DNA from: Apium graveolens
Taxonomy: Eukaryota; Streptophyta; Magnoliopsida; Apiales; Apiaceae
Direction: 5' to 3'
Length of the DNA: 64,000 nt
Assembly: GCF_009905375.1 (NCBI RefSeq)
Contig: NC_133650.1
Location: 67,821,648 to 67,885,647, forward strand
Program-made: the position numbers and the translations under genes
Part shown: in pieces, positions 988 to 63,954 of the stretch
Position numbering within the stretch: position 1 is the first letter of the stretch
Layout: the number at the start of each line of letters is the position of its first letter
Notes under the pieces: model-generated
What the model was told of the DNA's origin: nothing
Databases searched by the model: none
Seen by the model: the letters and a program-made list of their open reading frames with translations, nothing else

Positions 988-2014
988 TGTTGTGGATATG
1001 TTATGAACTTGATGATTTCATTAACAAAACACCTTAGTAGATTTTACTTAGTGAAAAATTTAGCACTCGACGGATAAGGAATATAGTCCCGATGGATGAC
1101 TCAATATAGTTCCGACGGATGATGATCAATTATCCATCGAGTGAGTAGCTTATGTAATAATGAGTCTGTAGCACATTTCTGCATACACCTTGTTTAGATT
1201 CTGTAGTAGCACTCAAGTCATGTTGACTTTAATTAGATATGCAGAATAGGTTGATTAATTGTACATAGATGATGTCTTGTAATTCTGTATAAATGAAATG
1301 AAGTCAAGTGCCAGATTGCTACCCGACGGATAAACAATAATGCCAATCGATGGATGATCAACTAGGCAACCCGACGGATGATCATGTACCCGACGGATAA
1401 TCAATTCAAACATCAGTTAACAGTGACAACACAGTCACATGCGTCGAGTGTATGCAAAAGGAATGTGGAAGCTTATTCAACTGGGTTTTAGAGAACAAAG
1501 AAGCATTTCCATTTCCATGCTATTATGAAGATATTCAAAGATGCTGGAATAGAGTAATGAAGCAGTAGATTATTAGACTTGATAGGTTTTTGTTTTATTA
1601 TCTTGTCTTATTACTTTGTAATCTTGGTGATATATAAACCAAGAAGTAGCAAATAGAACAGCAAGAATACTAAGCAATTATATTCTTAGAGAAACATTTG
1701 TAAGCTGTATTCTTAGCATTTCTCTGTGAACTTAGTTGTTCATATTTGTAAGTAGCTGTGAGCAAATCTTGCTACACAGAGTTCTCTTGATATAATATAT
1801 ATCTCTGCTGGATACATTCAAATCCACCAGAAAGTTTTTAAAGACTTGTATTTTTAATTACTTGTGTTTTGATTTTACTAACTTCTTATTCTGCACCTTG
1901 TAAATCAAACACTTATATATTATTAAGATAGAACATTTTATAATTTGAGAAAAAGGTTCAAGAATTCCATTCAACCCCCTTCTGTAATTCTTGTTGCACT
2001 GTTAGGGATTAACA
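988..2014 (+). repeat. Element A 5' LTR
   Basis: 1027 bp, bounded by TGTTG...TAACA. It matches the split 3' LTR (13266-13386 plus 41088-41991) throughout, with about 40 differences counted by eye. The first 400 bp carry eight copies of the CCGACGGAT motif. Near 1631-1650 a TATATAAACC stretch is a plausible core promoter for the genomic RNA. The 3' end is followed two bases later by the primer-binding site. Confidence 0.93.
1066..1398 (+). promoter_or_regulatory. CCGACGGAT motif cluster in A 5' LTR
   Basis: Copies of (C/T)CGACGGAT or its one-base variants start at about 1066, 1088, 1111, 1322, 1346, 1370 and 1389, with the reverse form ATCCATCGAG at 1132. They lie upstream of the likely transcription start, where enhancer or repressor sites would sit. 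The same motif recurs in gag, pol, the pol-env spacer and env. Its function is not known. Confidence 0.75.
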
Positions 2015-2016
2015 AT

Positions 2017-2028
2017 TGGTATCAGAGC
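2017..2028 (+). other. Element A primer-binding site (tRNA-iMet)
   Basis: TGGTATCAGAGC lies two bases after the 5' LTR. It is the standard plant copia primer site, complementary to the 3' end of initiator methionine tRNA. Confidence 0.9.
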
Positions 2029-2075
2029 AAGCTCTTGATAAATAAAGAGTTTAAAGATCACAACAAAACAGCAAG

Positions 2076-4476
2076 ATGAACAAGAAGGATGTTGGAGTCA
2101 AGATTCCTTTTCTGGACAAAGATAATTACCATCACTGGAAGGTAAAGATGCATCTTCATTTACTTTCTCAAGATGAGGCCTATATAGATTGCATAGAAAG
2201 AGGCCCTCATGTACCAATGAGAGCTGCAACTGGAAATGAACCATCTGTCCCCAAGCCAAGGCATGAATGGTCTAATCCTGATATTGAACAAGTCATGAAA
2301 GATAAGAAGGCCATGAATATCCTGTTCAATGGAGTTGATGGTGACATGTTTAACAACAACATCAATTGAAAAACTGCCAAGAAAGTTTGGGATACAATAC
2401 AGATTATCTGTGATGGCACTGAAAGAGTTAGAGAAAACAAGATGCAACTACTAATTCAGCAATATAAGCACTTTCACAGTGAAGATAGTGAGTCTCTCAC
2501 TGAAATTTTTAGTAGATTTCAAAAACTACTAAATGCTCTGAAATTGCATGGAAGGGTCTATCAGACAAAAGACTCCAATCTTAAGTTCCTTAGATCTCTT
2601 CCAAAGGAATGGAAACCTATGACAGTCTTATTGAGAAACTCTCAAGATTACAAGGAGTTTACTTTGGAGATACTGTATGGCATCCTGAAAACTTATGAGC
2701 TTGAAATAGAGCAAGATGAGGAGATGGAGAGAGGAAATAAGAAAGGAGGATCCATTACACTAGTTGTTGAGTTAGAAAAAGAGAAGGAGATGAAGATGGA
2801 AGCTGTTGAATCAACTTCAAAGGTCTGTGAAAATAAGGGCTAGGGGCTGGTAGCAAAAAATGAAGATTCTTTGAGCCAAGATGACATGGAAGATATTGAT
2901 GAACATCTAGAATTTCTCTCCAAAAGATTTTCCAAGCTCAAGTTCAAGAAGAACTTTGGAGCAGCTAAGCCAAATAGAAACATGGTGGATAAAATCAAAA
3001 TTCAAGTGTTTCAAATGTGGCTTGGCAGGGCACTTTGCCAGTGAGTGTAGAAAGTCAGATTCCAGCAAAAAGAAGTTTGAGCCTGTGGATTATAAACAGA
3101 AATACTTTGAGTTGCTCAAACAAAAGGAAAGGGCTTTCATTACACAAGAAAATGACTGGGCAACAGATTGTCTGGATGAGGATGAGGATGTCAGCTATGT
3201 CAATCTAGCCCTAATGGTCAAGTCTGATGAAACAGAGACAAGTTCTTCAAGTAATCAGGTAATCACCACTAACCTTGCACATTTATCTAAAGCTGAGTGT
3301 AATGATGCAATAAATGACATGTCTACAGAATTATATCATTTGTGTGTTACACTTAAGTCTCTTACTAAGGAAAATGCTAAAATCAAAGAAAACAATTTGT
3401 TTTTAAGTGAGAGGAATAATGTGCTAGAGTCTCAGTTCATTGAATTTGAAAAATTGAGAATTAAGTGTAAAATTGCTAAGGATGAATTAACTGAGTCCTT
3501 GAAGAAAGAAGAGATCTTGAAGAAACAGCTTGAACGAGAACAGGAGGTGATTAAGGCATGGAAAACATCTAGAGATGTTCATGCTCAAATCACCAAAGTT
3601 CAAGGTATTGAGTCCTTTTTTGATGCAGCCTGGAAGAAGAATAAGGAGAAGCTGGAATCCAATTTGGTTAAAGGATTGCTAACAGATGTAGACTCGACGG
3701 ATGATGAGGGTCATCCGTCGGATAACAAAAAGGGTTATCCGTCGAGTGATATAAATCCTCATCCATCGACTGTAAGCAAACCTGTGAGTAAAGCCAAATT
3801 TGTCAAGTTAAATGAGAAATATGGATCAGTTTCCAAGAATTTTGTTCCAGGAGAATCCAGTCAAGTGAAGAAGGAGAAAAAGGCTAATGTTGGTCATATG
3901 ACTGTCAAGCAATTGAGTGACAGACTGGAAAAGATTGAGGTTAAAACAGAGGCTAAAAGGAAAAATAATAGAAATGGTAATGTAGGAATTAACAAGCATA
4001 ACAACTACACACCTGATAAATATGCTCCAAGAAAAATCTGTGTCAAGTGTGGTAGTGTAAATCATTTGTCTGTTAATCACAAAACTTCCATGCCTACTTC
4101 CATATCTGTGCCACCTCATTTTCCCAACATAAATATCATGCCTTCTATGCCTATGAATGCTATGTCTACACAGAATATGAATGCATAGTTTGCTAATATG
4201 CCATTTGCACCTAATCCTTATTATGCTGCATTTAGTATGCCACAAATGCCATTTAGCATGCCTTACGGGAATAACATGTTTACTAATAGCATTTCATTCT
4301 CTGTTAATCAAAATATACATGATAATTCTACTGTAATGAATGGTTTCAAAGGTCCAACTCAAATGACTAAGGATGAATCTAATATCCCCAAGTCAAATGA
4401 GAACAAACCTAAGAAACAGAAAAATAAAGCTAACAAGGCAGGACCCAAGGAAACTTGGGTACCAAAATCAACTTGA
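2076..4476 (+). pseudogene. Element A gag (capsid/nucleocapsid), broken
   Basis: The ATG at 2076 opens a gag whose N-terminus (FLDKDNYHHWKVKMHLHL) and middle (SNLKFLRSLPKEW, YGILKTYELE) are typical of SIRE-like plant copia capsid. A CCHC knuckle (C-x2-C-x4-H-x4-C) lies near 3009-3050, followed by a long coiled-coil-like Glu/Lys segment and a second knuckle near 4040-4080 whose last Cys is His here (Cys in element D). In-frame stops fall at 2367-2369, 2841-2843 and 4186-4188, and there is a frame change between 2843 and 2956. The natural end is the TGA at 4474-4476, shared with D. The 3692-3770 linker holds four CCGACGGAT-type motifs. Confidence 0.9.
3692..3770 (+). promoter_or_regulatory. CCGACGGAT motif cluster inside A gag
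   Basis: Four motif copies lie in 79 bp: CTCGACGGAT, ATCCGTCGG, ATCCGTCGAG and ATCCATCGAC. CGACGGATGA at 3695-3704 and TCATCCGTCG at 3711-3720 form a perfect 10-bp inverted repeat with a 6-base loop. They encode a loose STDD/HPSD/YPSS/HPST linker between the coiled-coil segment and the C-terminal knuckle. Confidence 0.7.
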
Positions 4477-4496
4477 TTTGATTTTGATGTGTTCAG
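4459..4496 (+). other. Intron-like gag-pol junction of A (38 nt)
   Basis: The segment begins with GT after the gag codon TGG, contains the gag stop TGA and a TTGATTTGATTTT tract, and ends TTCAG before the first pol codon. Pol is in a different frame from gag here, and removing exactly these 38 nt would bring the two into one frame. D has the same layout with 38 nt and B with 39 nt. A 38-nt intron is very short for plants, so splicing is only a hypothesis; frameshifting or an upstream donor are alternatives. Confidence 0.45.
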
Positions 4497-5924
4497 GGAA
4501 ACAGAAAGAATCTATGGTACTTGGATAGTGGTTGTTCAAGACACATGACTGGTGATTCTACCCTGCTCACAGAGTTCAAGGAGAGATCTGGCTCAAGTAT
4601 TACTTTTGGAGATGACAGCAAGGGTTATACTGTGGGATATGGCTTGATTTCAAAAGACAATGTCATCATTGAGGAGGTTGCCTTAGTGGATGGTCTCAAG
4701 CACAATTTGTTGAGTATCAGCCAGCTTTGTGATAAAGGCAACTCAGTAACCTTCAACTCAGAAGCCTGTGTTGTGATAAACAAAAGAAACAACAAAGTGG
4801 TTTTCACTGGTGTGAGAAAAGGAAATGTGTACCTAGCTGACTTCAACTCATCAAGTGCCGAATCTGTTACTTGTCTTCTCAGCAAAGCAAGTTAGGATGA
4901 AAGTTGGTTATGGCACAAAAAGCTATCTCATCTAAACTTCAAGACCATGAATGAACTTGTAAAGAAAGAACTAGTTAGAGGCATTCCTCAAGTGGATTTT
5001 TCTAAGGATGGACTGTGTGATGCTTGCCAGAAGGGAAAGAAAATTAAAGCATCATTCAGAAAGAAGTTTGATTCAACAATTGAAGAACCTTTGCAACTGC
5101 TTCACATGGATTTGTTTGGACCAGTCAATGTGTTGTCCATCTCAAGGAAAAGATTTTGCCTAGTAATTATAGATGATTTCTCAAAGTTCTCTTGGACATA
5201 TTTCCTAAAGTCCAAAGATGAGGCTAGTGAAATCATCATCAATCACATAAGGCAAGTCAATAATCATCCTGATTTCAAAGTTAGAAGAATTAGGAGTGAC
5301 AATGGAACTGAGTTCAAGAATTCTGTCATGAGAGCATTTTGTGAAGAAAATGGGATTTTGCATGAGTTTTCAGCAGCAAGAACTCCACAAAAAAATGGAG
5401 TAGTAGAAAGGAAGAACATATCACTTATTGAAGCTGCAAGGACAATGCTTGAGGAGTCTAAATTACCAACATATTTCTGGGCTAAAGCTGTAAATACTAC
5501 ATACTACACTCAAAATATTTCTTCGGTTAATCAAGCAAAATGCATGACTCCCTATCAATTGTTCAAGAACAAGAAGCCAACTCTAAATTTTTTCATGTCT
5601 TTGGCTGCAAATGTTATATCTTGAGTAATCAAACTGATCAGAATGGGAAGTTTGATGCTAAAGCAGATGAAGGAATTTTTGTTGGATATGCTATTGGTAA
5701 AGCATATAGAGTCTACAATCTAAGAACTAACATTATTGTGGAATCAATACATGTTGTGTTTGATGATAAAAAGATTGAAGGACTGTAAAATGGAGATTAC
5801 CATGAGAGCCTCAAATTTGACAATGTGGAGATGGTTAGTGATGACAGTGATGATGAAAGTGATCAAGAAACGGTATCAAAGGATAATGCAAAAAAATCTA
5901 CTACCAATGAAGCACAAAATTCAA

Positions 5925-6031
5925 CATCTGTCGAGTTGCATAATGCTTCATCCGTCGGGAGATAATCTGCTTTATCCGTCGAGAGACAACCAGCCTCATC
6001 CGTCGGTACTCAAAATTCACCATCCGTCGGG
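5925..6031 (+). promoter_or_regulatory. CCGACGGAT motif cluster in A integrase-RT linker
   Basis: Five copies in the reverse orientation (ATCCGTCGG/ATCCGTCGAG and one ATCTGTCGAG) are spaced 20-25 bp apart. They are read as SVG/SVE, a different reading phase from the gag copies (HPS/YPS), so conservation is at the nucleotide level rather than of one peptide. Confidence 0.7.
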
Positions 6032-6354
6032 TCATCAAAAGATTCTGGAAGTCAGAATAGACCACTTACAGAAAGTTCCCTTTTCTCAAATCAAAGATCC
6101 ATTAACTCAGGGGGAGTTTCTAACAATCAAAACTCAATCACACATCAAGACAACAATGAGGCCTCTTCATCTAGAGCTAATCTACCTCAACAAAGGAAAT
6201 GGACAAAGGATCACCTCTTTGAGCTCATCATTGGTGATGTATCTTCTAGAGTTCAAACAAAAAGAGCAACTCAAGAAGAATGTCTATACATCAGCTTTCT
6301 TCTAAGGGAGAACCAAAGAAAGTAGAAGAAGCTCTGTTGGATCCTGATTGTATT

Positions 6355-6560
6355 TTAGCTATGCAGGAGGAGCTAAACCAATTTGAGAGGAATAAGGTAT
6401 GAATCCAATCCTAAAGATGAGTAGCTAAACCAATTTTAGCTATGCGAGAGGAGCTAAACCAATTTGAGAGGAATAAGGTATGAATCCAAGCCTAAAGATG
6501 AGGAGCTAAACCAATTTTAGCTATGTAGGAGGAGCTAAACCAATTTGAGAGGAATAAGGT
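6355..6560 (+). repeat. Local triplication within A pol
   Basis: Three imperfect copies of an ~82-bp segment containing GGAGCTAAACCAATTTGAGA follow each other. Element D has one copy at the matching place (58540-58580), where it encodes the start of the RT region (EELNQFERN). The extra copies bring in-frame stops, so the duplication is damage specific to A. Confidence 0.8.
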
Positions 6561-8000
6561 AGAAGAAGCTCTGGGGCCCAAGCCTAAAGGAAAGAATCCA
6601 ATTGACACCAAATGGGTATTCAGAAACAAGATGGATGAAAATGGCATAGTAGTCAGGAACAAAGCTAGATTGGTTGCTAAGGGCTACTGTCAACAAGAAG
6701 GAATAGATTTTGATGAAACTTTTGCTCCTGTTGCAAGACTTGAAGCCATTAGAATTTTCTTAGCCTATGCAGCCCATGCCAATTTCAAATCTATCAAATG
6801 GATGTCAAAAGTGCCTTTATGAATGGAGATTTGGAGGTGGAAGTCTATGTCAGTCAGCCTCCAGGTTTTGAAGATCCAAATTTTCCAAAATATGTTTACT
6901 ATCTCTTGAAAGCACTTTATGGACTAAAGCAAGCACATAGAGCCTGGTAAGACACTTTGTCAAAGTTTCTTTTAGAGAATCACTTCACTAGAGGTACTGT
7001 AGACAAAACTCTTTTCTTTAGAAATGTTAATGGCTCTAGTATACTTATTCAAATTTATGTAGATGACATTATTTTTGGCTCTACAGATGAAAAACTTTGC
7101 AAAAAGTTTGCCCCATTGATGCAAAGTAAGTATGAAATGAGTATGATGGGAGAACTAACTTACTTTCTTGGTTTGCAAGTTAAGCAAGTTAGTGATGGAA
7201 TATTCATTAGTCAAACTAAATACATTTATGATCTTTTAAAGAAGTTTGATCTAATGGATTGCACATCTGCAAAAACTCCTATGGCCACTGCAACAAAGCT
7301 TGAATTAAACACTACTGAAAAGTCTGTGGATATTTCAAGTTATAGGGGCATGGTTGGCTCACTTCTGTACTTAGCAGCTAGTAGGCCAGATATAATGTTT
7401 GCTACATGTTTGTGTGCTAGATTTCAGGCTGATCCTAGAGAATCTCACTTAGTAGCTATTAAGGGAATATTCAGATATCTCAAGGGAACACCAAAACTTG
7501 GTATTTGGTACCCTAGAGATTCTGGTTTTGATATAACTGGTTATTTAGATGCAGATTATGCAGGTTGTAGAATTGATAGAAAAAGTACAACAGGAACCTG
7601 TCAATTTCTAGGAAACAAGCTTGTGTCCTGGTTCAGTAAAAAGCAAAATTCAGTTTCTACTTCTACAGCTGAAACTGAATATATTGTTGCTGGCAGTTGC
7701 TGTGCACAGATTTTGTGGATGAAAAAATAATTGCTAGACTATGGTTTGCAAGTGGAAAGAATTCTCATTTTCTGTGATAACACAAGTGCAATTGCCATCA
7801 CTGAAAATCCAGTACATCATTCAAGGACAAAGCACATAGACATCAAGTACCACTTCATAAGGGAACATGTAATGAATGGTACTGTGGAACTACATTTTGT
7901 TCCAAGTGAAAAGCAGCTTGCAGATATATTTACCAAGCCACTGGATGAATCCACCTTTTCAAGGTTGGTAAGTGAGTTAGGTATGCTAAATTACTCTTAA

Positions 8001-8523
8001 ATCCTTTCAGACAATTTGCAAGAGTTAATTCAGCCATAAACTTAATTGATTTTTCAGTCTTGGATGAAATTTTGGCTAAGTCAAAATTTACATCTCGACG
8101 GATGATCATTATCCATCGAGTTTGATCATCCGTCGGTATACATTTTATTAATAAAATCAATTACTTTTCTCGAATATTTTATGACTCGACGGATAACTGA
8201 TTTATCCTCATCCGTCGAATTGTCTGAATCTTAGCCGTTAATTCCCTGAACTTTATCCATCGAGTATACTTACAGTTTATAAGTATAACACGATGGATAA
8301 TTGAAGGAATTTTTACAGTTTATTTTTTAAACGGCTATTTTGGGCAATTCTTATTGGTTACTTTATTTTACTTTATTATTTTTGACAATTATTTTTGAGA
8401 TAGTATAAAAGCTTAATTCATTTCCATTACTTTTCTTTTATCATTCTCAAATCATCTGCTCTAAATTCTCTCTTTCTCAAAAGCAATTATCATCTCTATC
8501 TCTGCAATTTCTACTCTCTAACA
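8001..8523 (+). other. A pol-env untranslated spacer with motif cluster
   Basis: This 523-bp stretch lies between the end of pol and the envelope-like ATG. All frames contain stops, so env cannot be reached by simple readthrough. Seven CCGACGGAT-type motifs lie at 8093-8300 in both orientations, some as inverted pairs such as CTCGACGGAT...ATCCATCGAG at 8094-8120. Its 3' part is a CT-rich leader that follows a TATA box. Confidence 0.75.
8403..8412 (+). promoter_or_regulatory. TATA box before A envelope-like ORF
   Basis: GTATAAAAGC lies 112-121 bp upstream of the ATG at 8524, followed by a CT/CAA-rich leader typical of plant 5' UTRs. Element D has the same TATA box at the same distance. Confidence 0.55.
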
Positions 8524-11500
8524 ATGGCACCAGTCGTCAAGATCATGTCACAAACTGGATTCATCTATGAGAAGAACAACTTCACGGCTCTAGTAAACAA
8601 GGGAATTAAACAGTCTGGTGACTACCACAAAATGATGGATTTTGTGAAGCACTGCAAACTCAACTATGCCATGCTAGAATCACCCACCATCTTCTGTGAG
8701 GTTGTTGAGGAAATCTGGTCAACTGCTGTGTACAACTCAACTGATAAGACCATCATACTCACTATTAAAGGTAAAGAATTATGTATTAACAGTGATGTTG
8801 TTAAAGCATGTTTCAAAATTCCTGATAATACTGTAACTTCACCACACACAGACACTGACATTGTTAATATGCTTAACTCCATGAACTATGCACTCTCTAC
8901 TTCTAAGTTAAGTGAAATTAGGAGGTTGGGTCTTAGGAAAGAATGGAGTTATCTATGTGATGTAGTTACTAAGGTATTCTCTAGTAAAATCGGTAATTTT
9001 GATTCTGTCAATATCTCTATGCTTAACATGCTTTACATGCTAGTTACTGATAAGTACTTTAACTTTAGTGATCTTGTTTTGTTTGAGTTGGGGTTTAAGT
9101 TAGGAGAGTTAAATAAGAGGGGTAAAAATGTTTACTATGCTAGATTTTTCATGATGTTAGCTAACCACCTCTCTGAGGGAATTGTGCTTGAGAACCCAAC
9201 CAACAAACTAGATTGTTGGGTTCAAGAGAGAAGAATTATTGCAGATTTGAATAGGGCAAACCATCACAAAGAGGTGCCACTCCTCTATTTCCCTATAATG
9301 GAAGCACCTCATGTAAGTGAGGTAAGTTCATCTGTCTCTACTATTCCAACCTCACGAATTTCTTTGAATTCTAGTGTAGCTATGACAACTGTGTCAATGA
9401 CCCAACAGTTGCCTACCCAAGTTACCAAACCATCAAAGATTTCTAAATCCAAGTCAAAGAAAGCCCCCTCTGGTATCTCTCAAAAGATGCCAGTTGAAAA
9501 ATCCACCAAATCTAAAGAGGGGAGTGTGAAGGTGGGTAAGGTAGGTGAGGGACAGGGTGAACATAAAAGAAACCCTAAGGATAAGGTTGGAGAGGTGAGT
9601 GTTTCCCAGCCTAGCCACACTGCAGTTTCCCAACAGACTGCAGTGCTTAATAAGGAAATTAGCTTATTGCTAGTTGCATCCTCCCAAAAGGATGTGACTA
9701 TTGATTAAAGCTCTCAGCCAAGAGCACAGGCCAAAAGGGTAAGGGACACAAGCTCACCCCAAACTTATACTAGAAAGAAGAAACCAAAAACCCTTGGGGA
9801 TCCACAGGGTCCACACACTGTGCAAACTGGTGTTAAAGACACAGTCAGTGCACCTTTTCAAAGTCAATTTGATGTGGCTCTAATAAATGTGGAGTCACAG
9901 CCAAAATCTTTAGTAATAGAAGCACCCCAAACACCAAATTCTCCCACAAACTCTCTGGATGTGGATATGATCAACACAACAATTCCTAATTCCCCTTCTT
10001 TAACTCTGTTGGGGAAGCCAAAATCTAGTGCAAGTGAGCATCATCTTTTGGATGATTTATTGGCTCACTTGCCAATTCTTTCAAGAACTGTTGAGACATC
10101 TGTGCCAAAATTTTCATCAATCTGCACAGAGTCCACAATAGTTTCCACTCCAAACTCATTTATTCCTACTCTCTCGATGGATATTGTTCATCTGTTGTGT
10201 AGTGATTGTATCCCGACGGATAAGCTTAATAGCAGTTATCCGTCGGATAGTCAAACTGCTAACTCAACGGATATCCCTTATCTGTCGAGTGTCTTTGCAC
10301 AGCTTTCAATTTCATCAATTATCTCAAGTGCAGAAGACTTAGTGGTAGTACAATCACTCCTAGGATTGAGGGAAGGGAGTGAACTGAGTGAGAGTCCGGG
10401 TGCTCCCAGGAAAAAGGAGAGGAAAAGAGTGAAATATGCAATCCAGTTCTTCAGGATTGGCAAAAGAGAGTGTGTGGAGTCCCATCTTAGATGGTGAAGG
10501 TGAGGGTGTGAGGGTGGGGAGCCAAGGTGAGACCTTGATACAACAAAAGAGAGAAAATGAGAGAAAAGCAGGTACTGAAGATATAAGGATGGATGTTATT
10601 GTAAGTGAGTTAATGAATGTCCCGGATGTAGACAGGGAGGGCATATCTCAGCAACCTCAAGCTGTTATAGATTCCACCTCCCTTGATGTTGAGACATTTA
10701 CTCACCCTGTTCCAGCATATCAACTTCTAGATGAACAGGGCAATGACAATGCAGAAAGGATGCTTAACTTGGCGCATACCACACAGTCAATGTTAAGGGC
10801 TAAGGATGCCATCACAGCTGGTGATGTTGATTATGAGACTGGTGGTTCAGAAGATTTCTTTGGAGGTGAAGGTGGAGATAGTGAAGAAGAGCCATTGAAT
10901 ATAGGGGGAGAAGTAGGCTCTAGTTAAAGATCAGGCATGCCATCTTGGGCATTTTCAAAGCACTGTGATGAACACTACTTCAAGACAACCCTAATTCAAC
11001 TCATAAATCAGACAAATTCTACTCTTCAAACCACCACAAATGCCAACACCAAAAAGCTCCTTCAAGCACATCTTGCTTCTCTGCAACTACAACAAATTCA
11101 AGGTTTTCAACATGCTCGAGATGTCAACACTATCAAAGGTGATATTGATGAGATAAAAAAGGCCATTTCTGACAAGATGGACTCTAAACTTCCAGAAGCT
11201 ACAATGCTTGACATCAAGAGACAACTCAGGAAAAATTCTGATCTTGCCACAAAGATAGATGCCTTAGACACACGAATGTCATCAATGGAAGCATCTCTTA
11301 CAACAATTCATCTACACCAAGCTCAACAGACAGACTTGCTTCAAAAACTGGTGGATGCACAGACCTCCTCTACTCAACTTGCTGATAACAAAAAGGGGAG
11401 AAAGAGAATTCTAGGAGTGAGGGGGAACAAAAAGCGGTCAACATTGAAGTTAGCTAAGTAATTGTGCCTTCAATTACTTTCACCAAGCCACCAGCCAAAG

Positions 11501-50677: not shown

Positions 50678-50683
50678 AGTTTT

Positions 50684-52008: not shown

Positions 52009-55000
52009 CTATTTCCTTGATTGTCTGGATTTCTTCCCAAGCCTCCTGTTATTTTCTTCTATTTGATTTTTGAGATGTCTGTGGAATTCAAGTTCATCAG
52101 ATTTTGAGAGATCTAGCATTCCTTGCATTTCCAGAAGAGTCTCATTGCTAGAGATGCTCAACTGGTCTTCTAATCTGAAAAATCTTCTAACTTCCTTACC
52201 ATCCATGAATTCCATCAGCCAGTAGGGCCTTAGATGCACTCTACTCTCTGTGTAAGGAATATTTAAAGTCTTTGGGAGTGCATTTTTGGCTCTAATACTC
52301 CTCAGTTCTTCAATCTTCTTTAGAACTAATCTTCTAGCTGTCACATTAAATCCAAAGTTCTTTTTGAAGGATGAATAAACTTTTATCAATACAGATTGGC
52401 TCTCTTGAAGAATCCCTTGAAGTGGCCATTGTATCTCATTTCCTCCCTTGTACTTGAATACTATCCTTTCAGGTAGATTCCTGTAAGTATCAATTCCTCT
52501 AACTTCTTTCAGTTCATCTAGATAGAGGTTTAGATCAGAGAATTCCTTGATGTCATAGATGTACATGATATCTCCCTTGTTGACCTTGGTTTGAGCTTTG
52601 GTTAGGGACTTGGATCTGAGAGTTGATGGCTTCACTTTCTTGACTGCTCTGGTCTTTGTCTTCTTTGGCTTCATGAAATGAGATAGATTGAGTTCAGGAA
52701 TTGGTAGACTATCCCAGTCTATTGGCTCATCCTTTGGAATGATAGGTTCACCATGAAAATTCTTGGATGGATCTATCTTGAATTCTTCATGTGCCACATA
52801 GGGCATGGATGTTTGAGTTGTTGTACAAGTAGACTTTTGGGAAACTGATCTTCCAATCCTTCTTCATCAAAGTTCACTTTTCTCTTGGAGTGAAGTTTGT
52901 ATCTAAACCTTCTTTTCTGCTGTGATTCTTCTTGCATTTTCAGATCCTTAGATCCAGTGGTTTCAGATGGTTGTTCAGAAATTTATTGTGTGGGTTTCAC
53001 AGCTTGCAACTTGGCCAAGATAGCAGCTTGCTCCTTCTTTTATTTGAGCTTTTTAGCATCTAGAGCAACTTGCTTCTTTTCTCGCTTCAATCTTGCCTTT
53101 TCTTCCCTTTTTGCTTCAAAAAATTGAGGGTGTCCAGCCACCACACAAATTTCCTTACCATTTCTGAAAACCTTGGAAATTCTCCTTTTTAATGCTGAAT
53201 CATTTGGATCCTTGTAAAATGCAATAGATCTTGATAACAGTTTCTTCTCATCAGGCTTTGGTGTCTCATACACTGTATCCAAAGGGTTCTTTAGTGAAGA
53301 TTTTGGGTAGTTCACCTTTGGCTTCATAATTAGATCCGCCTTTGGGGATTTGATGCAGGATGTCTGGCCTTTTTCCAGATAGTTCATGCTCATATCAGTC
53401 ACAGAAATTTTCCTGACTTGAGAGTGATGAAAAACTGATTTTTCTGGCTTCTTTGCTAGACCAAATTTCTTTTGAATATCCTCATCAATTTTCTCCTAGT
53501 TGATTGTACTAAACTGCTTCTTCTCATCTGCTCTCAAAGTAGCTGCTGCTTCAATTATTAGATCAATGCTATCTTTAGCTGGTGGCTTTGTGAAAGCAAT
53601 TGTTGGCATAATTGATTTACTCACTTGAATGTTGAGCACTTTTTGCTCCCCCTCACTCCTAGAACTCTCTTTCTCCCCCTTTTTGTTATCATCAAGCTGA
53701 ATAGAGGAGGAGGTCTGTGTAGCCACCAGTTTCTGAAGCAAGTATGTTTGTTGAGCTTGGTGTAGATGGATTGCTGTAAGAGAAGCTTCCATAGCAACCA
53801 TTCTTTTGTCCAAGGAAGCCACCTTGGTTGCAAGATCAGAGTTTTTCCTGAGCTGTCTTTTGATGTCTATCGTTGTTGTCTCTGGAAGTCTAGCTTCCAA
53901 CTTGTTAGACATGTCTTTCTTGAGTTGATCAACTTCATTTTTGATGAGGGAGACATTTTGACTTTGTTAGTAGCCTGATATTTGTTGTAGTTGGAGAGAT
54001 GCAAGATGTGCTTGCAGAAGCTTCTTGGTGCTAGCATTTGTTGTTGATTGAAGTGTAGACCGTGTTTGGCTGATAAGTTGGATAAGAGTGGTCTTGAAAT
54101 AGTGTTCATCACACTGCTTTGAAAATGCCCAAGATGGCATGCCTGATCTTGAACTAGGGCCTACTTCTCCCCCTATGTCCAATGGCTCTTCTTTACTATC
54201 TCTACCCTCACCTCCAAAGAATTCTTCTGATCCACCAGTCTCATAATCAACATCACCAGCTGTTGAAGGCAAAGTTGTGATGGCATCCTTAGCTCTTTGC
54301 ATGGACTGTGTGGTATGCACCAAGTTTAGCATCCTTTCTGCATTGTCATTGCCCTCTCCAGCTAGAAGTTGATATACTGGAACAGGGTGAGTAAATGCCT
54401 CAGCATCCAAGGAGGTGGAATCTACAACAACTTGACTTTGCTGAAATAATTCCTCCCTGTTAGCATCCTGGACATTCATTAACTCACTTGCAATGACACC
54501 AACCCTTATATCTCCTGTACCTGCATTTCTCTCATTATCTCTCTTTTCTTGCATCAAGGTCTCACCTTGGCTCTCTACCCTCACACCCTCACCATCTAAG
54601 GTGGGACTCCTCATACTCACTTTTGCCAGTCCTGAAGAAATGGACTGCATTGGATCACTCTTATTATCTCCTTTTTCCTGTGAGCAACCCAGACTCTCAC
54701 TCATGACACTACCTTCCATCAATCCTAATAGTGATTGCACAATTACTAAGTCATCTGCACTTGTGACTATAGTTGAACTTTGGAGTTGTGCAGAGACACC
54801 CGACGGATGAGAAATATCCATCAGTTTAGTAATTTGACTATCCAACGGATGACTGCTGTTAGGCAGATCCGTCGGGATACAATCACTACTCGGTGGATGA
54901 ACAATATCCATCGAGTGAGTAGAAATGAATGAGTTTGGAGTGGAGACTATTGTGGACTCTGTGCAGATTGATGAATATTTTGGCACAGATGTCTCAACAG

Positions 55001-56561
55001 TCTCAGAAAGAAATGGCAAGTGAGCCAACAAATCATCTAGAAGATGATGCTCACTTGCATGGATTTTTAGCTTCTCCAACAGAGTTAAAGATGGAGAATA
55101 TGGTTGTGATGTTTGAATCATGTCAACATACAAAGAGTGTGTGGGAGAATTTGGTGTTTGAGGTGTTTCATCTTGTACAGATTTTGGCTGTGACTCCATA
55201 TTTGTTGGAACCACATCAATTTGACTTTGAGATGGTGCAGTGACTGGGTCTTTAGCTCCAGTTTGCACTGTGTGTGTACCCTATGCATCCCCAAGGGTTT
55301 TAGATTTCTTCTTTCTTGTGTAGGTTGGTGGTGAACTTGTGTCCCTACCCCTTTTATTCTATGCTCCTAGTTGAGAGCTTGTTTCAATAGTTACATCCTT
55401 TTGGTAGGATGAAACTAGAATTGAGCTTTTATCCTTATTAACAACCACAGTTTGTTGGGAAACTGTGGTGTGGCTTGGTTTGGGTACACTATGCTCACCA
55501 TCCTTATCCTTAGGGCTTCTTTTATTTTTACCCTGTCCCTCACCTGTCTTTTTCACCTTCATACTCCCCTCTTTGTGTTTAGTGGATTTTACAACTGGCA
55601 TCTTTTGAGAGACACCAGAGGGGGCTTTCTTTGTCTTTGTTTTTGAAACTTTGGTTTTGGTAGCTTTGGTAGGCCTTTGTCTGGTCATTGACACATATGC
55701 CACTGCTACACTAGAAGGCAAAGAAATGGTTGAGGTTAGAAGAGTAGAGACAGTTGAAATTACCTCACTTACTTGAGGTACCTCCATTACTGGAAAGTAG
55801 AAGAGTGGCACCTCTTTGTGGTGATCTGCTCTATTGAAATCTGCAATAATTCTCCATTCTTGAACCCAACAATCTAACTTGTTGGTTGGGTTCTCAAGCA
55901 CAATATCCTCAAAGAGGTGGTTAGAAAGTATCATGAAAAATCTAGCATAATAAACATTCTCACCCCTCTTATTAAGCTCCCCTAACTTAAACCCCCACTC
56001 AAACAAGACTAGATCACTAAAATTGAAGTATTTATCAGTTACTAGCATGTAAAGCATGTTGAGCATGGAGATATTGACAGAATCAAAATTGCTAATTTTA
56101 CCAGAAAATACTTTAGTAACTACATCACACAGATAACTCCATTCTTTTCTAAGACTCAATCTCCTAATTTCACTTAATTTAGAGATGGTGAGTGCATAAC
56201 CCATGGAGTTTAACATGTTAACAATATCAACGTCTGTGTGTGGAGTAGTGACAGTGTTATCAGGAATCTTAAAGCATGCTTTAACAATGTCACTATTAAC
56301 ACATAATTCCTTACCTTTAATAGTGAAAGTGATGGTCTTGTCAGTTGAGTTGTACACTGCAGTCGTCCATATTTCCTCCACAACCTCACAGTAGATAGTA
56401 GGAGACTCCAAAATGGCATATTTGAGCTTACAGCCTTGCATAAAATCCATCATTTTGTGGTAATCGCCAGACTGTTGAATCCCCTTGTTCACTGGAGCCG
56501 TGAAATTGTTCTTCTCATAGATAAAGCCAGTTTGAGACATGATCTTGACGACTGGTGCCAT
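52009..56561 (-). pseudogene. Element D envelope-like ORF (ORF3), broken
   Basis: It starts MAPVVKIMSQTGF at 56561 and matches the A ORF in all segments: globular N-terminal part, Lys/Ser-rich middle, coiled coil (53770-53910) and C-terminal domain (YLDELKEVRGIDTYRN, ending at 52009). It stays in one frame from 56561 to 53040 but has stops at 55359-55361, near 55280, at 53967-53969, 53496-53498 and 53040-53042. The last is shared with A. A frame change follows before 52806. Motif cluster at 54798-54915. No membrane helix is apparent. Confidence 0.8.
54798..54915 (-). promoter_or_regulatory. CCGACGGAT motif cluster inside D envelope-like ORF
   Basis: Six copies or one-base variants (CCCGACGGAT, ATCCATCAG, CCAACGGAT, ATCCGTCGGG, CGGTGGAT, ATCCATCGAG) occupy the same place as the A cluster at 10171-10290. 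Confidence 0.7.
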
Positions 56562-57083
56562 TGTTAGAGAGTAAAAATTGCAGAGAGAGAGGGTAATTGC
56601 TTTTGAGAAAGAAAGAAGTTAGAGCAGATGAATTGAGAATGATAAAAGAAAAGAAATGAAAATGAATTTTGCTTTTATACTATCTCAAAAATAACTGTCA
56701 AAAATAATAAAGTAAAATAAAGTGACCTATAAAAATTGCCCAAAATAGCCATTTAAAAAATAAACTGTAAAAATTCCATCACTTATCCGTCGTGTTATGC
56801 TTACAAACTGTAAGTATACTCGATGAATAATGTTTCAGAAAATCAACGGCTAGGTATGAGACAATTCGACGGATAAGGATAAATCAGTTATCCGTCGAGA
56901 TATAAAATATTCCAGAAAAATAATTAATTTTATTAACAAATTGTATATCGAAGGATGATCGAACTCGATGGATAATGATCATCCGTCGGGATGTAAATTT
57001 TGACTTAGCCAAAATTTCATCCAAGACTGAAAAATCAATTAAATTTCTGGCTGCATCACAACTTGTAAATTATCTGAAAAGAT
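56562..57083 (-). other. D pol-env spacer with motif cluster
   Basis: This 522-bp untranslated spacer has the same length as in A. Seven motif copies lie at 56783-56991 in both orientations. The part next to the ORF is a CT-rich leader. Confidence 0.75.
56671..56680 (-). promoter_or_regulatory. TATA box before D envelope-like ORF
   Basis: On the minus strand GTATAAAAGC lies 110-119 bp upstream of the ATG at 56561, in the same place and sequence as in A. Confidence 0.55.
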
Positions 57084-60000
57084 TCAAGAGTAATTAAGCA
57101 TACCTAACTCACTTACCAACCTTGAAAAGGTGGATTCATCCAGTGGCTTGGTAAATATATCTGTAAGCTGTTTTTCACTTGGAACAAAATGTAGTTCTAC
57201 AGTACCATTCATTACATGTTCCCTTATGAAGTGGTACTTGATGTCTATGTGCTTTGTTCTTGAATGCTGTACTGGATTCTCAGTGATGGAAATTGCACTT
57301 GTGTTATCATAGAAAATGGGAATTCTTTCCAATTGCAGACCATAGTCTAGCAATTGGTTTTTCATCCACAAAATCTGTGCACAGCAGCTGCTAGCAGCAA
57401 TATATTCAGCTTCTGTTGTAGAAGTAGAAACTGAATTTTGCTTTTTACTGAACCAGGACACAAGCTTGTTTTCTAGAAATTGACAGGTGCCTGTTGTACT
57501 TTTTCTATCAAATCTACAACCTACATAATCGCATCTGAATAACCAGTTAGATCAAAACAAGAATCTCTAGGGTACCAAATGCCAAGTTTTGGTGTACCTT
57601 TGAGATATCTGAAAATTCTCTTAATAGAAATTAAATGAGATTCTCTAGGATCAGCCTGAAATCTAGCACAAAGACATGTAGCAAACATTATATCTGGCCT
57701 ACTAGCTGTTAAGTATAGAAGTGAGCCAACCATGCCTCTATAACTTGAAATATCTACAGACTTTTCAGTAGTGTTTAATTCAAGTTTAGTTGCAGTGGCC
57801 ATGAGAGTTTTTGTATATGTGCAATCCATTAGTTCAAACTTCTTTAAAAGATCATAAATGTATTTAGTTTGACTAATGAATATTCCATCACTAACTTTCT
57901 TAACTTGTAAACCAAGAAAGTAAGTTAGTTCTCCCATCATGCTCATTTCATACTTACTTTGCATCAATTTGGCAAATTTTTTGCAAAGTTTTTCATCTGT
58001 AGAGCCAAAAATAATGTCATCTACATAAATTTGAACAAGTATGCTAGAGCCATTAACATTTCTAAAGAATAAAGTTTTGTCTACAGTACCTCTAGTGAAG
58101 TGATTCTCTAAAAGAAATTTTGACAAAGTGTCATACCAGGCTCTAGGTGCTTGCTTCAATCCATAGAGTGCTTTCAAAAGATAGTATACATGATCAGGTA
58201 GATTTGGGTCTTCAAAACCAGGAGGCTGACTGACATAGACTTCCTCCTCCAAATCTCCATTTAGAAAAGCACTCCTGGCATCCATTTGATAGACCTTGAA
58301 ATTGGCATGGGCTACATAGGCTAAGAAGTTTTTGATGGCTTCAAGTCTTGCAACAAGAGCAAAGGTTTCATCAAAATCTATTCCTTCTTATTGACAGTTG
58401 CCCTTAACAACTAATCTAGCTTTATTCCTGACAACTATGCCATTTTCATCCATCTTGTTTCTGAATACCCATTTGGTGTCTATTGGATTCTTTCCTTTAG
58501 GCTTGGGTACCAGCTTCCAAACATTGTTCCTTTCAAATTGGTTTAGCTCCTCTTGCATAGCTAAAATCCAATCAGGATCCAACAAAGCTTCTTCTACCTT
58601 CTTTGGTTCTTTCTTAGATAGGAAACTGCTATATATACACTTTTCTTGAGTTGATCTCCTTGTTTGAACTCTAGAAGATACATCACCAATGATGAGCTCA
58701 AAGGGGTGATCCTTTGTCCATTTTCTTTGTTGAGGTAGATTAGCTCTAGATGAAGAGGCCTCATTGTTGTCTTGATGTGTGATTGAGTTTCGATTATTAG
58801 AAACTCCCCCTGAGTTTGTAAATCTATGATTTGAGAAAGAGGGACTTTCTGTAAGTGATCTATTCTGACTTTCAGCTTCTTTTGATGACCCAACAGATGG
58901 TGTATTTTGAGTTCCGACGGATGAAGCTGATTGTCTCCCGATGGATGATGCAGATTGTCTGTCGACGGATGAAGCATTTTGTAACTCGATGGATGTTGAG
59001 TTATTAGCTTCATTGGTTGTAGATTTTTCTGCACTATCCTTAGTTGTAGTTTCTTGATCACTTTCATCATCACTGTCATCACTAACCATCTCCACATTGT
59101 CGAATTTGAGGCTCTTATGGTAATCTCCATCTTGTAGTCCTTTAATCTTTTTATCATCAAACACAACATGTATTGATTCCATAACAATGTTGGTTCTCAG
59201 ATTGTAGACTCTGTACTTTACCAACAGCATATCCAACAAAAATTCCTTCATCTGTTTTAGCATCAAACTTCCCAATTTGATCAGTTTGATTTCTCAAGAT
59301 ATAATATTGGCAACCAAAGACATGAAGAAAGTTTAGAGTTGGCTTCCTGTTCTTGAACAATTGGTAGGGAGTCATGCATTTTGCTTGATTAACCAAAGAA
59401 ATATTCTGAATGTAGCATGCAGTATTTACAACTTCAGCCCAGAAGTATGTTGGTAACTTTGATTCTTCAAGCATTGTCCTTGCAGCTTTAATAAGTGATC
59501 TGTTCTTTCTTTCTACTACTCCATTTTGTTGTGGAGTTCTTGCTGCTGAAAACTCATGCATAATCCCATTCTCTTCACAAAATACTCTCATAACAGAATT
59601 CTTGAACTCAGTTCCATTGTCACTCCTGATTCTTCTAACTTTGAAATCAGGATGATTGTTGACTTGCCTTATGTGATTGATGATGATTTCACAAGCCTCA
59701 TCTTTAGACTTAAGGAAATATGACCAAGAGAACTTTGAGAAATCATCTATAATTACTAGGCAAAATCTCTTCCTTGAGATGGACAACACATTGACTGGTC
59801 CAAACAAATCCATGTGTAGCAGTTGCAAAGGTTCTTCAATTTTTAAATCAAGCTTCTTTCTGAATGATGCTTTGATTTGCTTTCCCTTTTGACAAGCATC
59901 ACACAGTCCATCCTTAGAAAACTCCACTTGAGGAATACCTCTAACCAGTTCTTTCTTTACAAGCTCATTCATGGTCTTGAAGTTTAGAAGGGATAGCTTC

Positions 60001-60422
60001 TTGTGCCATAGCCAACTTTCATCTTGACTTGCTTTACTGAGAAGACAAGTAACAGATTCTGTATTTGATGAGTTGAAGTCAGCTAAGTACACATTTCCTT
60101 TTCTCACTTTAGAGAGAACCACTTTGTTGCTCCTCTTGTTTGTCACAACACAGTCTTCTGTAGTAAAGGTTACTGAATTGCCTTTATCATAAAGTTGACT
60201 GATACTCAATAAATTGTGCTTGAGACCATCCACTAAGGCAACCTCCTCAATGATGACATTGTCTTTTGAAATCAAGCCATATCCCACAGTATAACTCTTG
60301 TTGTCAATTCCAAAAGTAATACTTGGGCCAGCTCTTTCCTTGAACTCTGTGAGCAGGGTAGAATCTCCAGTCATGTGTCTTGAACAACCACTATCCAAGT
60401 ACCACAGATTCTTACTGTTTCC
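57084..60422 (-). pseudogene. Element D pol (PR-IN-RT-RNase H), broken
   Basis: Domains are as in A: protease DSGCSRHMTG (~60390), pre-integrase His/Cys domain, integrase with HMDLFGPV, SDNGTEF and NGVVERK, linker with motif cluster (58912-58995), RT with YVDDIIFGS (~58015), and RNase H ending at 57084. Breaks are a frame change near 59210, a stop at 58388-58390 (a Gln codon changed to TAA) and a one-base deletion near 57530. It lacks the A triplication and thus shows the family's normal RT start. Confidence 0.92.
58912..58995 (-). promoter_or_regulatory. CCGACGGAT motif cluster in D integrase-RT linker
   Basis: Four copies (CCGACGGAT, CCGATGGAT, TCGACGGAT, TCGATGGAT) are spaced about 24 bp apart, matching the A cluster at 5925-6031. 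Confidence 0.7.
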
Positions 60423-60460
60423 CTGCACATATTAAAATCAAATCAAGTTGATTTTGGTAC
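60423..60460 (-). other. Intron-like gag-pol junction of D (38 nt)
   Basis: On the minus strand it begins GT after TGG, contains the gag TGA and TTGATTTGATTTTAAT, and ends TGTGCAG before GGA, the first pol codon. The layout and length equal those of A, and the frame relation between gag and pol is also the same. Confidence 0.45.
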
Positions 60461-62837
60461 CCAAGTTTCCTTGGGTCCTGCCTTGTTAGCTTTCTTCTTT
60501 TGTTTCTTAGGTTTGATCTCATTTGACTTGGGGATATCAGATTCATCCTTAGTCATCTGAGTTGGACCTTTGAAACCATTCATTAAAACAGAATTATCAT
60601 GCACATTTTGATTAACAGGAAATGGCATGCTATTTGCAAACATGTTATTCCAGTAGGTCATGCTAAATGGCATTTGAGGCATACTAAATGCAGCATAATA
60701 AGGATTAGGTGCAAATGGCATATTAGCAAACTGTGCATTCATATTCTGTATAGACATAGCATTCATAGGCATAGAAGGCATAACACTCATGTTGGGAAAA
60801 GAAGGTGGTACAGTCATGGAAGTAGGCATGGCAAGTTTGCAATTAACAGATAGATGATTAACACTACCACACTTAATACAGATTTTTCTTGGAGCATATT
60901 TATCAGGTGTATAGTTGTTATGTTTGTTAATCCCCACTTTACCATTTCTATTGTTTTTTTAGCCCCTGTTTTAACCTCAATCTTTTCTAGTCTGTCATTC
61001 AATTGCTTGATGGACAGATGACCAACATTCACTTTCTTCTCCTTCTCCACTTGACTAGATTCTCCTGAAATAAAGGTTTTGGAAACTGATCCATATTTTT
61101 CATTTAACTTAGCAAGTTTGGATTTACTCACAGGTTTGCTCACAGCCGACGGATGAGGATTTATGTCACTCGACGGATAACCTTTTTGATTATCCAACGG
61201 ATGACTCTCATCATCCATCGAGTCTACATCTGTTAGTAATCCTTCAACCAAATTGGATTCCAGCTTCTCTTTACTCTTTTTCCAGGCTGCATCACAGAAA
61301 GACTTAATACCTTGAACTTTGGTGATTGAGCATGGACATCTCTAGATGATTTCCATGCCTTAATCACATCATGTTCACGATCAAGCTGCTTCTTCAAAAT
61401 TTCTTCTTTCTTCAAGGACTCAGTTAATTCCTCCTTAGCAATCTTATATATTTTATTCTCAATTTTTTAAATTCAATTAACTGAGACTCTAGTGCATTAT
61501 TCCTCTCACTTAAAAACAAATTGTTTTCTTTGATTTTTGCATTTTCCTTAGTGAGGGACTTAAGTGTTATACGCAAATGATATAATTCTGTAGACATGTC
61601 ATTTATTGCATCATTACACTCAGCTTTAGATAAATGTGCAAGGTTAGTGGCGATTACCTGAATACTTGAAGAACTTTCTATGTTTCATCAGACTTGGCCA
61701 TTAGGGCTAGATTGACATAGCTGAAATCTTCATCCTCATCCAAACCATCTGCTGCCCAGTCATTTTCTTGTGTAATAAAAGCCCTTTTCTTTTGTTTGAG
61801 CAACTCAAAATACTTCTGTTTATAATCCACAGGCTCAAACTTTTTCTTGCTGGAATCTGACTTTCTACACTCACTGGCAAAGTGCCCTGCCAAGCCACAT
61901 TTGAAACATTTGAATTTTGATTTATCCACCATGTTTCTATTTGGCTTAGCTGCTCCAAAGTTCTTCTTGAACTTGAGCTTGGCAAATCTTCTGGAAAAAA
62001 ATGCAAGATGTTAATCAATATCATCCATATCATCCTGGCTCAAAGAATCTTCATTTTCTGCTACCAGCCCCTTTCCCTTGTTTTCACAGACCTTTGAAGT
62101 AGACTCAACAACTTCTATCTTCATCTCCTTCTCTTTCTCTAATTCAGCAACCAGTGCAATGGAACCTCCTTTCTTTCTCCCTTTCTCATTCTTTCATCTT
62201 GCTCTATTTCAAGCTCATAAGTCTTTAGAATTCCATACAGTCTTTCTAGTGTAAACTCCTTGTATTCTTGTGAATTTCTCAACGAGACTGTCATTGGTTT
62301 CCATTCTTTTGGAAGGGATCTCAGGAATTTGAGGTTAGAATCTTTGGTTAGGTAGACTCTTCCATGCAGCTTCAGAGCATTTAGTAGCTTTTGAAATCTA
62401 CTAAAGATATCAGTGAGGGTTTCACCTTCTTCACATTGGAAATGCTTATATTGCTGAATTAGTAACTACATCTTGTTTTCTCTAACTTGTTCAGTGCCAT
62501 CACAAATTATTTGAATGGTGTCCCAAACCTCCTTGGCTATCTTGCAATTGATGATGTTGTCAAACATGTCACCATCAACTCCATTGAATAATATATTCAT
62601 GGCCTTCTTGTCTTTCCTGACTTGTTCAATATCAGGATCCGACCATTCATGCTTTGGCTTGGGAACTGATGGCTCATTTCCAGTTGCAGCTCTTATTGGT
62701 ACATGAGGACCTTTCTCTATGCAATCCACATAGGCCTCATTTTGAGAAAGAAAATGAAGATGCATCTTTACCTTCCAGTGATGGTAATTATCTTTGTCCA
62801 GAAAAGGAATCTTGACTCCAATATCCTTCTTATTCAT
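60443..62837 (-). pseudogene. Element D gag, broken
   Basis: The ATG at 62835-62837 starts MNKKDIGVKIPFLDKDNYHH, as in A. The first knuckle (CFKCGLAGHFASEC) lies near 61875-61915 and the second (CIKCGSVNHLSVNC) near 60840-60880, here with its final Cys intact. There is a stop at 62466-62468, where A has Gln, and further frame changes near 62190, 62000, 61680, 61420 and 60960. The motif cluster is at 61144-61222. The natural TGA lies at 60443-60445. Confidence 0.9.
61144..61222 (-). promoter_or_regulatory. CCGACGGAT motif cluster inside D gag
   Basis: Four copies (CCGACGGAT, TCGACGGAT, CCAACGGAT, ATCCATCGAG) occupy the same linker as the A cluster at 3692-3770. Confidence 0.7.
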
Positions 62838-62883
62838 CTTGCTGTTTGTTATGATCTTTAAACTCTTTGTGCTTCAAGATCTT

Positions 62884-62895
62884 GATCTGATACCA
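62884..62895 (-). other. Element D primer-binding site (tRNA-iMet, one mismatch)
   Basis: On the minus strand TGGTATCAGATC lies two bases after the LTR. It differs by one base from the TGGTATCAGAGC of A, B and C. Confidence 0.85.
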
Positions 62896-62897
62896 AT

Positions 62898-63954
62898 TGT
62901 TAGTCCCTAACAATACAACAAGAATTACAGAAGGGGGGGTTGAATGTAATTCTGGCTAATTTTTGAGATTAATGAAAAATGGTTCTATCTTAATAATATA
63001 TAAGTGTTTGATTTGCAAAGTGCAGAATAAAGAGTTAGATAAATCAAAACACAAGTAATAAAAATACAAGTCTTTAAAACTTTCTGGTGAATTTGAGTGT
63101 ATCCACTATATATATATATATATCAAGAGAACCCTGTGAAGCTTGAATAGCTCACAGCTGCTTACAAATATGAACAACTAAACTTACAGAGAAATGCTAC
63201 AGGATACAGCTTAAAATTATTTCAATAAGAATGTATTTGCTTAGTTTTGTTGTTGTTCCACTTGCTACTCTTGGTTTATATATCATCAAGATTACATAGT
63301 AATAAGACAAGATAATAAAACAAAACCTATCAAGTCTAATACCATGTTGCTTCACTACTCTATTCCAGCATCTTTGAATATCTTCATAATAGCATGAAAA
63401 TGGTAATGCTTCTTTGTTCTCAAAAACCCAGCTGAATAGGCTGCCACATTCCTTTTACAAACACTCGGCGCATGTGACTGTGTTGTCACTGTCAACAGAT
63501 GTTTGAATTTATCATCCGTCGGGTACGTGATTATCATCCGTTGGGCTGCCTTGTTGATCATCCGTCGGGTAGCTTTGTTGATCATCCGTCGGGTAGCTTT
63601 GTTGATCATCCGTCGGGTAGCTATTTGACACTTGACTTCATTTCATTTGTGCAGAATTACAAGATTTCTTATATTTACAATTAATCAACCTATTCTGCAT
63701 ATCTAATTAAAGTCATCATGACTTTTATGCTACTACAGAATCTATACAAAGGTGTTTACAGAAATGTTCTACATGACTTATTGTTACATAAGCTACTCAC
63801 TCGATGGATATCAAATCATCATCCGTCGGGACTATATTGAGTCATCCGTCGGGACTATATTTGATCATCCATCGAGTGCTACATTTTTCACTAAGTTAAA
63901 TCTACTAAGGTGTTTTGTTAATGTAATCATCAAGTTTACAACATATTCCCAACA
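62898..63954 (-). repeat. Element D 5' LTR
   Basis: 1057 bp, the promoter LTR of the minus-strand element. It has the motif array at 63510-63625 and further copies at 63800-63880, and ends TTCCCAACA before the duplicated ACATC. Confidence 0.93.
63510..63625 (-). promoter_or_regulatory. Tandem ATCCGTCGG array in D 5' LTR
   Basis: The motif recurs five times, and the last three copies are identical units of 24 bp (each with TTGATCATCCGTCGGGTAG). The A LTR has dispersed copies here instead of a strict tandem array. Confidence 0.8.

Follow-up and report, generated by a model that had tools for sequence, protein, structure and literature searches.

Family-specific short words recur at matched places in Sirevirus-type Copia elements of Apium graveolens

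A 64,000-nucleotide stretch of the Apium graveolens genome (the window; contig C4, positions 67821648-67885647) contains two copies, A and D, of one Sirevirus-type Copia retrotransposon family, along which a short word, CCGACGGAT (fuller form WCYCGACGGATRA), recurs from one long terminal repeat (LTR) to the other. An original prediction made from the letters of the window had explained this word as an element-wide recognition site for a protein, possibly the element's own, or as an RNA structure or packaging signal, and taken as a whole this interpretation is partly supported. The absence of the word from the neighboring elements B and C conceals the main point, which is that sibling families have other words at the same places. 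We give roughly even chances to the explanation that such words are sites in double-stranded DNA, private to each family, for a binding protein that diversifies along with them and is probably encoded by the element, in a manner resembling the anti-silencing system of VANC in VANDALs, which are Mu-like DNA transposons.

Distribution of the word in elements A and D

With both strands counted and overlapping self-complementary sites entering twice, the window holds 30 exact copies of CCGACGGAT and 58 at one mismatch or fewer. Element A (counted over 988-13383 plus 41085-42080) contributes 15 and 28, element D (50701-63960) 15 and 29, and the remaining 37,308 bases 0 and 1, the latter at 21233. 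The corresponding means of 20 dinucleotide shuffles were 0.0 and 0.1 for A, 0.0 and 0.35 for D, and 0.15 and 1.65 for the rest. The predicted enrichment across A and D is thus borne out by the shuffle comparison that had been proposed for it, with 15 exact copies in each element against practically none. The accompanying estimate of about 37 copies in A, one-base variants included, and a similar number in D was too high, as 37 is reached only when variants carrying two or more changes are admitted.

The copies fall in the five places that had been named, i.e., the upstream half of the LTR (spanning 1067-1398 in A), the gag linker, the linker between integrase and reverse transcriptase (RT), the pol-env spacer, and the env linker, followed by the 3' LTR, and the set in D corresponds (Table 1). 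Gaps between clusters are about 1.9-2.3 kb in both elements, with a final gap of 3.1 kb to the 3' LTR. As predicted, the copies lie in both orientations (sense in the LTR, antisense at 24-bp steps in the integrase-RT linker, mixed elsewhere) and in three codon phases: phase 0 (STD/PTD) and phase 1 (HPS/YPS) in gag of A and env of A and D, and phase 2 (SSVG) in the integrase-RT linker of D, in a reading that leaves out gag of D. Conservation of a peptide was rejected on account of these three phases and of the copies that lie outside coding sequence, in the LTR and spacer. One diverged copy in the 5' LTR of A, ATCCATCGAG, runs opposite to the sense arrays there.

The observed/expected CpG ratio of A (988-13383) is 0.17, yet exact CGACGGAT sites hold 38 of its 72 CpGs. 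The two LTRs of A differ by C-to-T type changes at motif CpGs (1089 versus 13367; 1347 versus 41326), so motif CpGs decay after insertion and have no permanent protection.

Other words in related families

One comparison comes from a close relative of A, the 7-kb interior (L089) of the element whose LTR is L077. This interior contains 20 copies of TCAACGGAT and 0 of YCGACGGAT, as opposed to 1 and 34 in A and D together (Fisher p=4e-14, although sites inside one element are not independent events). The TCAACGGAT copies lie in the gag linker (226-270), the integrase-RT linker (2453-2576), the pol-env spacer (4475-4630), and the env linker (6589-6705). When A and D are aligned to L089, the same base pair is changed at matching sites on either strand while the flanks can still be aligned. 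On the motif strand, the first CpG of the A motif at 13 aligned sites reads CA at nine, CG at two, TA at one, and a gap at one; the second motif CpG is retained in six of seven cases, as against none of ten aligned CpGs of A outside the motif. Random deamination would not be expected to alter one CpG consistently by strand and spare the second. Identity between A and L089 is 74% over gag-integrase, 84% over RT, and 69% over env, and this alignability indicates that the words came to differ by point substitution, not by replacement of blocks. As a separate observation, the env linker of L089 (6580-6710) has three opposed pairs with a fold z of -8.6, giving it strong cruciform or hairpin potential.

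To survey LTRs more widely, the first 40 of 100 listed primer-binding site (PBS) places, all on contig C1, were taken with 1.5 kb upstream of each and clustered by similarity together with the window's three LTRs. The repeated words differ among the resulting clusters. Seven A-type LTRs carry CCGACGGAT, and three LTRs that cluster with A carry exact copies of TCAACGGAT (12 in L052, 11 in L077, and 6 in L078), the word that defines the family we call A2. TCAGAACTT or TCAGTACTT is present in 12 of the 15 members of B's cluster, and ATGACAATC or variants of it in a cluster of eight. L055 and L057 share an array of ATCGACAAG, while L061 and L074 have other words. No clear array was seen among the 40 sampled LTRs in L062, L066, and L071, all in B's cluster, nor in L063 and L085. 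Arrays of the A, A2, B, and ATCGACAAG types are nearly all sense, and those of the ATGACAATC type are mixed.

Half of the sampled LTRs (20 of 40) have an 8-mer beyond the maximum of 30 shuffles, some of these being AT-rich repeats rather than a family word (L060, L067, L083); the word of L065 equals the shuffle maximum. Among the 12 B-type LTRs that have an array, only one exceeds that maximum, because TCAGAACTT, TCAGTACTT, and variants are mixed in them. Two further stretches are uninformative on interior copies, as L087, the stretch past L057, showed no element domains and L088 has an array laid out as in the LTRs of its family. In L055, L057, and L061 the array is composite, with ATCGACAAG alternating with a GAGAACTC-like word at steps of about 37 bp, which possibly reflects two readers or a dimeric site.

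The claim that the motif is missing from B, C, the solo LTR, and the host gene region stands for CCGACGGAT, with no exact copy outside A and D, and calls for one correction, namely that B has its own word, TCAGAACTT, at like places: the LTR, gag, integrase-RT, pol-env, and env. This word occurs 18 times exactly, versus 0-2 in shuffles. A form of the B word, TATCAGAACTTA, is one base away from B's own primer-binding stretch, TATCAGAGCTTA (40452-40463); the tRNA primer site may be the origin of the B word or may be disturbed by it.

Close same-direction pairs of each word were then counted over the whole 3.33-Gb genome, a pattern of which one array yields several and which is blind to opposed copies. 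CCGACGGAT forms 39,688 pairs (19,843 forward and 19,845 reverse; reversed control 0 and 1). TCAACGGAT forms 151,532 (75,914 and 75,618; control 3 and 2), and the B word, searched as ATCAGAACTT, forms 57,662 (28,560 and 29,102; control 1 and 2). Mixed pairs, searched only in the order CCGACGGAT then TCAACGGAT, number 882 (456 and 426; control 0 and 0). Pairs were compared with listed PBS places on C1 for 62 of the 100 listed A pairs (below 6.74 Mb) and for all 100 listed A2 and B pairs. Among the A pairs, 11 are sense in the LTR, nine are antisense at about +4.0-4.6 kb from the PBS, and two lie at +6.4-6.6 kb. The A2 pairs comprise 23 sense in the LTR, six in the gag linker, eight antisense at +4.0 kb, and one at +6.0 kb; the B pairs comprise 12 sense in the LTR, 31 antisense at +3.8-4.0 kb, and nine antisense elsewhere. 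Listed TCAACGGAT pairs repeat the layout of L089, whole or in part, in five C1 elements, at 882641-894449, 2833315-2845517, 2855426-2867569, 3864284-3876385, and 4054927-4067232. Within the limits of these listed pairs, the three private words share two main positions and directions, namely sense in the LTR and antisense between integrase and RT.

Candidate readers and competing explanations

Mixed direction, freedom of codon phase, and a concerted difference made by point substitution together argue for a reader of double-stranded DNA, and the part of the original prediction that proposed an element-wide DNA recognition site is well supported by these same features. CCGACGGAT would accordingly be the family-private recognition word of a sequence-specific protein, with tandem arrays in the LTR and further copies in interdomain linkers, which could tolerate short in-frame repeats. 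One trans-acting factor may read all of the sites and change along with the words. Multivalent binding along the whole provirus would open or de-repress its chromatin, as VANC does for VANDAL transposons, and private words would confine the effect to the family's own copies. We hold more tentatively, at somewhat below even chances, that each Sirevirus family encodes its own DNA reader to counter silencing along the provirus, convergently with VANC, with words and readers switching together at family splits; the reader is possibly the "envelope" product, which would then be no envelope.

Binding by a protein of the element itself is plausible. The N-terminal env-like piece of A is 81% identical to that of D, 58% to that of L089, and 24% to that of B, and between A and B the identities are 24% for this piece, 29% for gag, 57% for integrase, and 68% for RT. 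For the C-terminal env-like piece of A (340 aa), BLASTP finds no likeness to its B counterpart. The env-like piece, which has diverged far faster than pol, would be the first candidate reader and gag the second. SIRE elements in sunflower are reported to show a dramatic drop in CG methylation over their central part, which the authors do not, in the available portions of their paper, tie to a SIRE protein (PMC12844716).

Several observations weigh against this proposal. Gag is nearly as diverged as env between A and B, such that env is not singled out, which leaves an element-encoded reader of one kind or the other unaffected. A Pfam search of six env-like pieces (E<=10), in which HMMER filters may lose weak matches, gave no DNA-binding domain above the cut-off and no DUF1985 or DUF287. 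The pieces match Transposase_32 weakly only (E 0.019 and 0.04), and their further Pfam matches are at chance level (e.g., Myb_CC_LHEQLE at 0.14 and EZH2_N at 0.13). Both env-like structure models, with predicted local distance difference test (pLDDT) scores of 36 and 38, are too poor to use, and a search of PDB sequences gave no match for query P0001 and one chance-level match for P0006 (E 0.32). Two of the 13 aligned first CpGs are unchanged in L089, and the element-wide evidence for the second word consists of one sister copy read in letters plus the places of pairs. No listed PBS lies in range of 40 of the 62 A pairs, 62 of the 100 A2 pairs, and 48 of the 100 B pairs. The 1.5-kb stretches of L077 and L078 hold one and two copies of CCGACGGAT upstream of their TCAACGGAT arrays, which a neighboring A-type LTR would explain. 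Lastly, published Sireviruses without env carry repeated motifs in the LTR only, as far as the available parts of that report describe (PMC2829016), so an env-encoded reader is not the whole story everywhere.

The words could instead be sites for host transcription factors, a different plant factor for each family, acting as enhancers in the LTR and, inside the element, as promoters or enhancers of env. A TATA-like box, at 1631, does follow the LTR arrays of A (a second TATA-like stretch, at 1288, falls between the two arrays), and in the portions of PMC2829016 available, the repeated motifs gave mainly matches resembling sites of stress factors, with regulation proposed. We nevertheless regard host factors as an unlikely explanation, if one to be taken seriously, since they account less readily for copies in the coding linkers of gag, integrase-RT, and env in matched orientation, and for the concerted one-base-pair difference between sisters at all places read.

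An RNA signal, in which opposed copies form hairpins in the genomic RNA for packaging, dimerization, or small-RNA production, is improbable. In seven clusters that contain opposed copies, folding exceeds that of shuffles (z -3.3 to -8.6), and the matched changes between sisters preserve the pairs. However, the integrase-RT linker of A (z -0.46) and the LTR arrays (z -0.86 and -0.37), in which all or nearly all copies run one way, fold no better than shuffles, and these show the same sister word difference. Hairpins arise only where copies face each other and thus are not the common cause, and the RNA alternative in the original prediction is to that extent not supported. Palindromes in maize Sirevirus LTRs are reportedly described in a 2016 paper as having a role in small RNA, which could narrow the novelty of our findings.

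Passive spread of a selfish short repeat by tandem duplication and template switching, with no reader, has very little probability. The 24-bp periodicity and the variable copy number of LTR arrays speak for it, but the spacers between words differ from place to place and yet can be aligned between families whose words differ, the families agree in the orientation of their copies, and mixed pairs are rare. That TCAACGGAT is merely deaminated TCGACGGAT is scarcely credible: the difference is a CpG transition and single decayed copies occur in A and D, but the changed aligned sites read CA nine times and TG never on the motif strand beside a mostly retained second CpG, the 151,532 close pairs are of TCAACGGAT itself, and B's word is no decay product.

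Element class, anatomy, and relation to known systems

Elements A, D, and B are Sirevirus-type Copia elements, sharing Copia gene order, the PBS junction (exact in A and B), and the poly-C signal with published Sireviruses. In A, the integrase domain rve (4947-5624) precedes the RT domain RVT_2 (6957-7730). The Sirevirus LTR-PBS junction, CA/A(T or G)TGG-TATCAGAGC, is present in A (2020) and B (40455; PBS 40455-40463), and its exact form was not found in D; it occurs 57,369 times genome-wide, versus 0 for the reversed control. The poly-C integrase signal lies by the LTR 3' end at 1975 in A, 62933 and 50772 in D, and 40492 in B. The polypurine tract of Sireviruses is AGGGGGAG with AT/TG, in multiple copies near the 3' LTR. 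Here the terminal form is TGGGGGAG-AT/TG, and internal copies of AGGGGGAG are present, all of them in A and D more than 0.5 kb away from the 3' LTR. Additional env-like pieces lie downstream of pol.

Table 1. Positions of the elements, word clusters, and env-like pieces in the window.
Feature	Position	Strand	Remarks
Element A, Sirevirus-type Copia	988-41991	+	target duplication ATTTA; 3' LTR split by B (13387-41082)
A 5' LTR	988-2014	+	sense arrays 1067-1120 and 1323-1398
A gag-linker cluster	3694-3745	+	copies in + and - orientation
A integrase-RT linker cluster	5950-6030	+	four antisense copies, 24-bp steps
A pol-env spacer cluster	8095-8218	+	copy order + - + -
A env-like piece, 394 aa	8524-9708	+	candidate reader
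A env-linker cluster	10213-10248	+	copy order + -
A env-like C-terminal piece, 340 aa	12055-13077	+	
A 3' LTR, first part	13266-13386	+	motifs at 13345 and 13367
A 3' LTR, continuation	41083-41991	+	motifs 41091-41377
Element B, second Sirevirus family	13387-41082	-	target duplication ATATA; inside A's 3' LTR; contains element C
B 3' LTR array	13818-13923	-	
B env-like piece, 322 aa	31331-32299	-	
B pol-env spacer copies	32723-34460	+	11 at <=1 mismatch to ATCAGAACTT, 10/11 antisense to B
B integrase-RT linker cluster	36501-36719	+	6 at <=1 mismatch, 5/6 antisense to B
B 5' LTR array of TCAGAACTT/TCAGTACTT	40902-41007	-	sense to B
Element D, same family as A	50737-63954	-	target duplication GATGT; LTRs 62898-63954 and 50737-51800
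D 3' LTR arrays	51360-51721	-	
D env-linker cluster	54800-54875	-	
D env-like piece, 400 aa	55359-56561	-	open as found
D pol-env spacer cluster	56785-56989	-	
D integrase-RT linker cluster	58914-58970	-	motif antisense to D
D gag-linker cluster	61146-61202	-	
D 5' LTR arrays	63514-63852	-	

Two other repeats were seen in the window. Element C, of Ty3 type with a chromodomain match below the cut-off, has a 54-bp tandem repeat in eight copies near both ends (17826-18251 and 28037-28462), and the RT region of A has an 81-bp tandem repeat of 2.6 copies (6352-6561), of which BLAST pieces suggest one copy in D and in L089.

Repeated motifs in the LTR and upstream of env are an already known Sirevirus feature, published in 2010 as repeated motif (RM) boxes (Bousios et al., PMC2829016). 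The following comparisons draw on the available parts of that paper. Like our words, RM boxes are short and high-copy, differ from family to family, occupy the upstream half of the LTR and a stretch ahead of env, contain CpG (here in A and A2), and accompany the same PBS junction and poly-C signal. Of the 13 published RMs, which are palindromic, 12 have a CGG-CCG core, whereas the words here are asymmetric, with the order CCG-A-CGG in A, no CGG in B, and no CGG-CCG palindrome. The locations reported there for RMs are the LTR, the linker, and, for two elements, also the beginning of env, with none given for gag or the integrase-RT linker; the paper describes no sister families that switch words in concert, and it treats the function of the env-like gene as unproven.

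VANC recognizes a 9-bp word that is tandemly repeated in members of its own family, and its binding causes methylation loss (Hosaka et al. 2017, PMC5735166). In the portions of that paper available, VANDALs resemble our elements in having words of 8-9 bp in tandem repeats, related families with other words, sub-families with one-base C-type/T-type variants, and a fast-evolving element protein. They differ in being DNA transposons with the transposase VANA rather than Copia retrotransposons, in that VANC has DUF1985/DUF287, which matched none of the six env-like pieces, and in that VANDAL motifs lie in non-coding parts, while here coding linkers carry them too. Binding and demethylation have been shown for VANC. 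We found no paper joining Sireviruses and anti-silencing in the open-access literature of 2012-2026. As far as that literature shows, what is new is the presence of the word in the gag, integrase-RT, and env coding linkers, the asymmetric words lacking the CGG-CCG palindrome, the agreement in position and direction among families whose words differ, and the element-wide concerted difference between sisters.

These findings bear on how Sireviruses attain copy numbers in the tens of thousands within silenced genomes. A word that differs in concert at separate places, some of them inside coding linkers, implies that a reader is dedicated to it. Should this reader be a product of the element, retrotransposons would join DNA transposons in using anti-silencing that is addressed by sequence.

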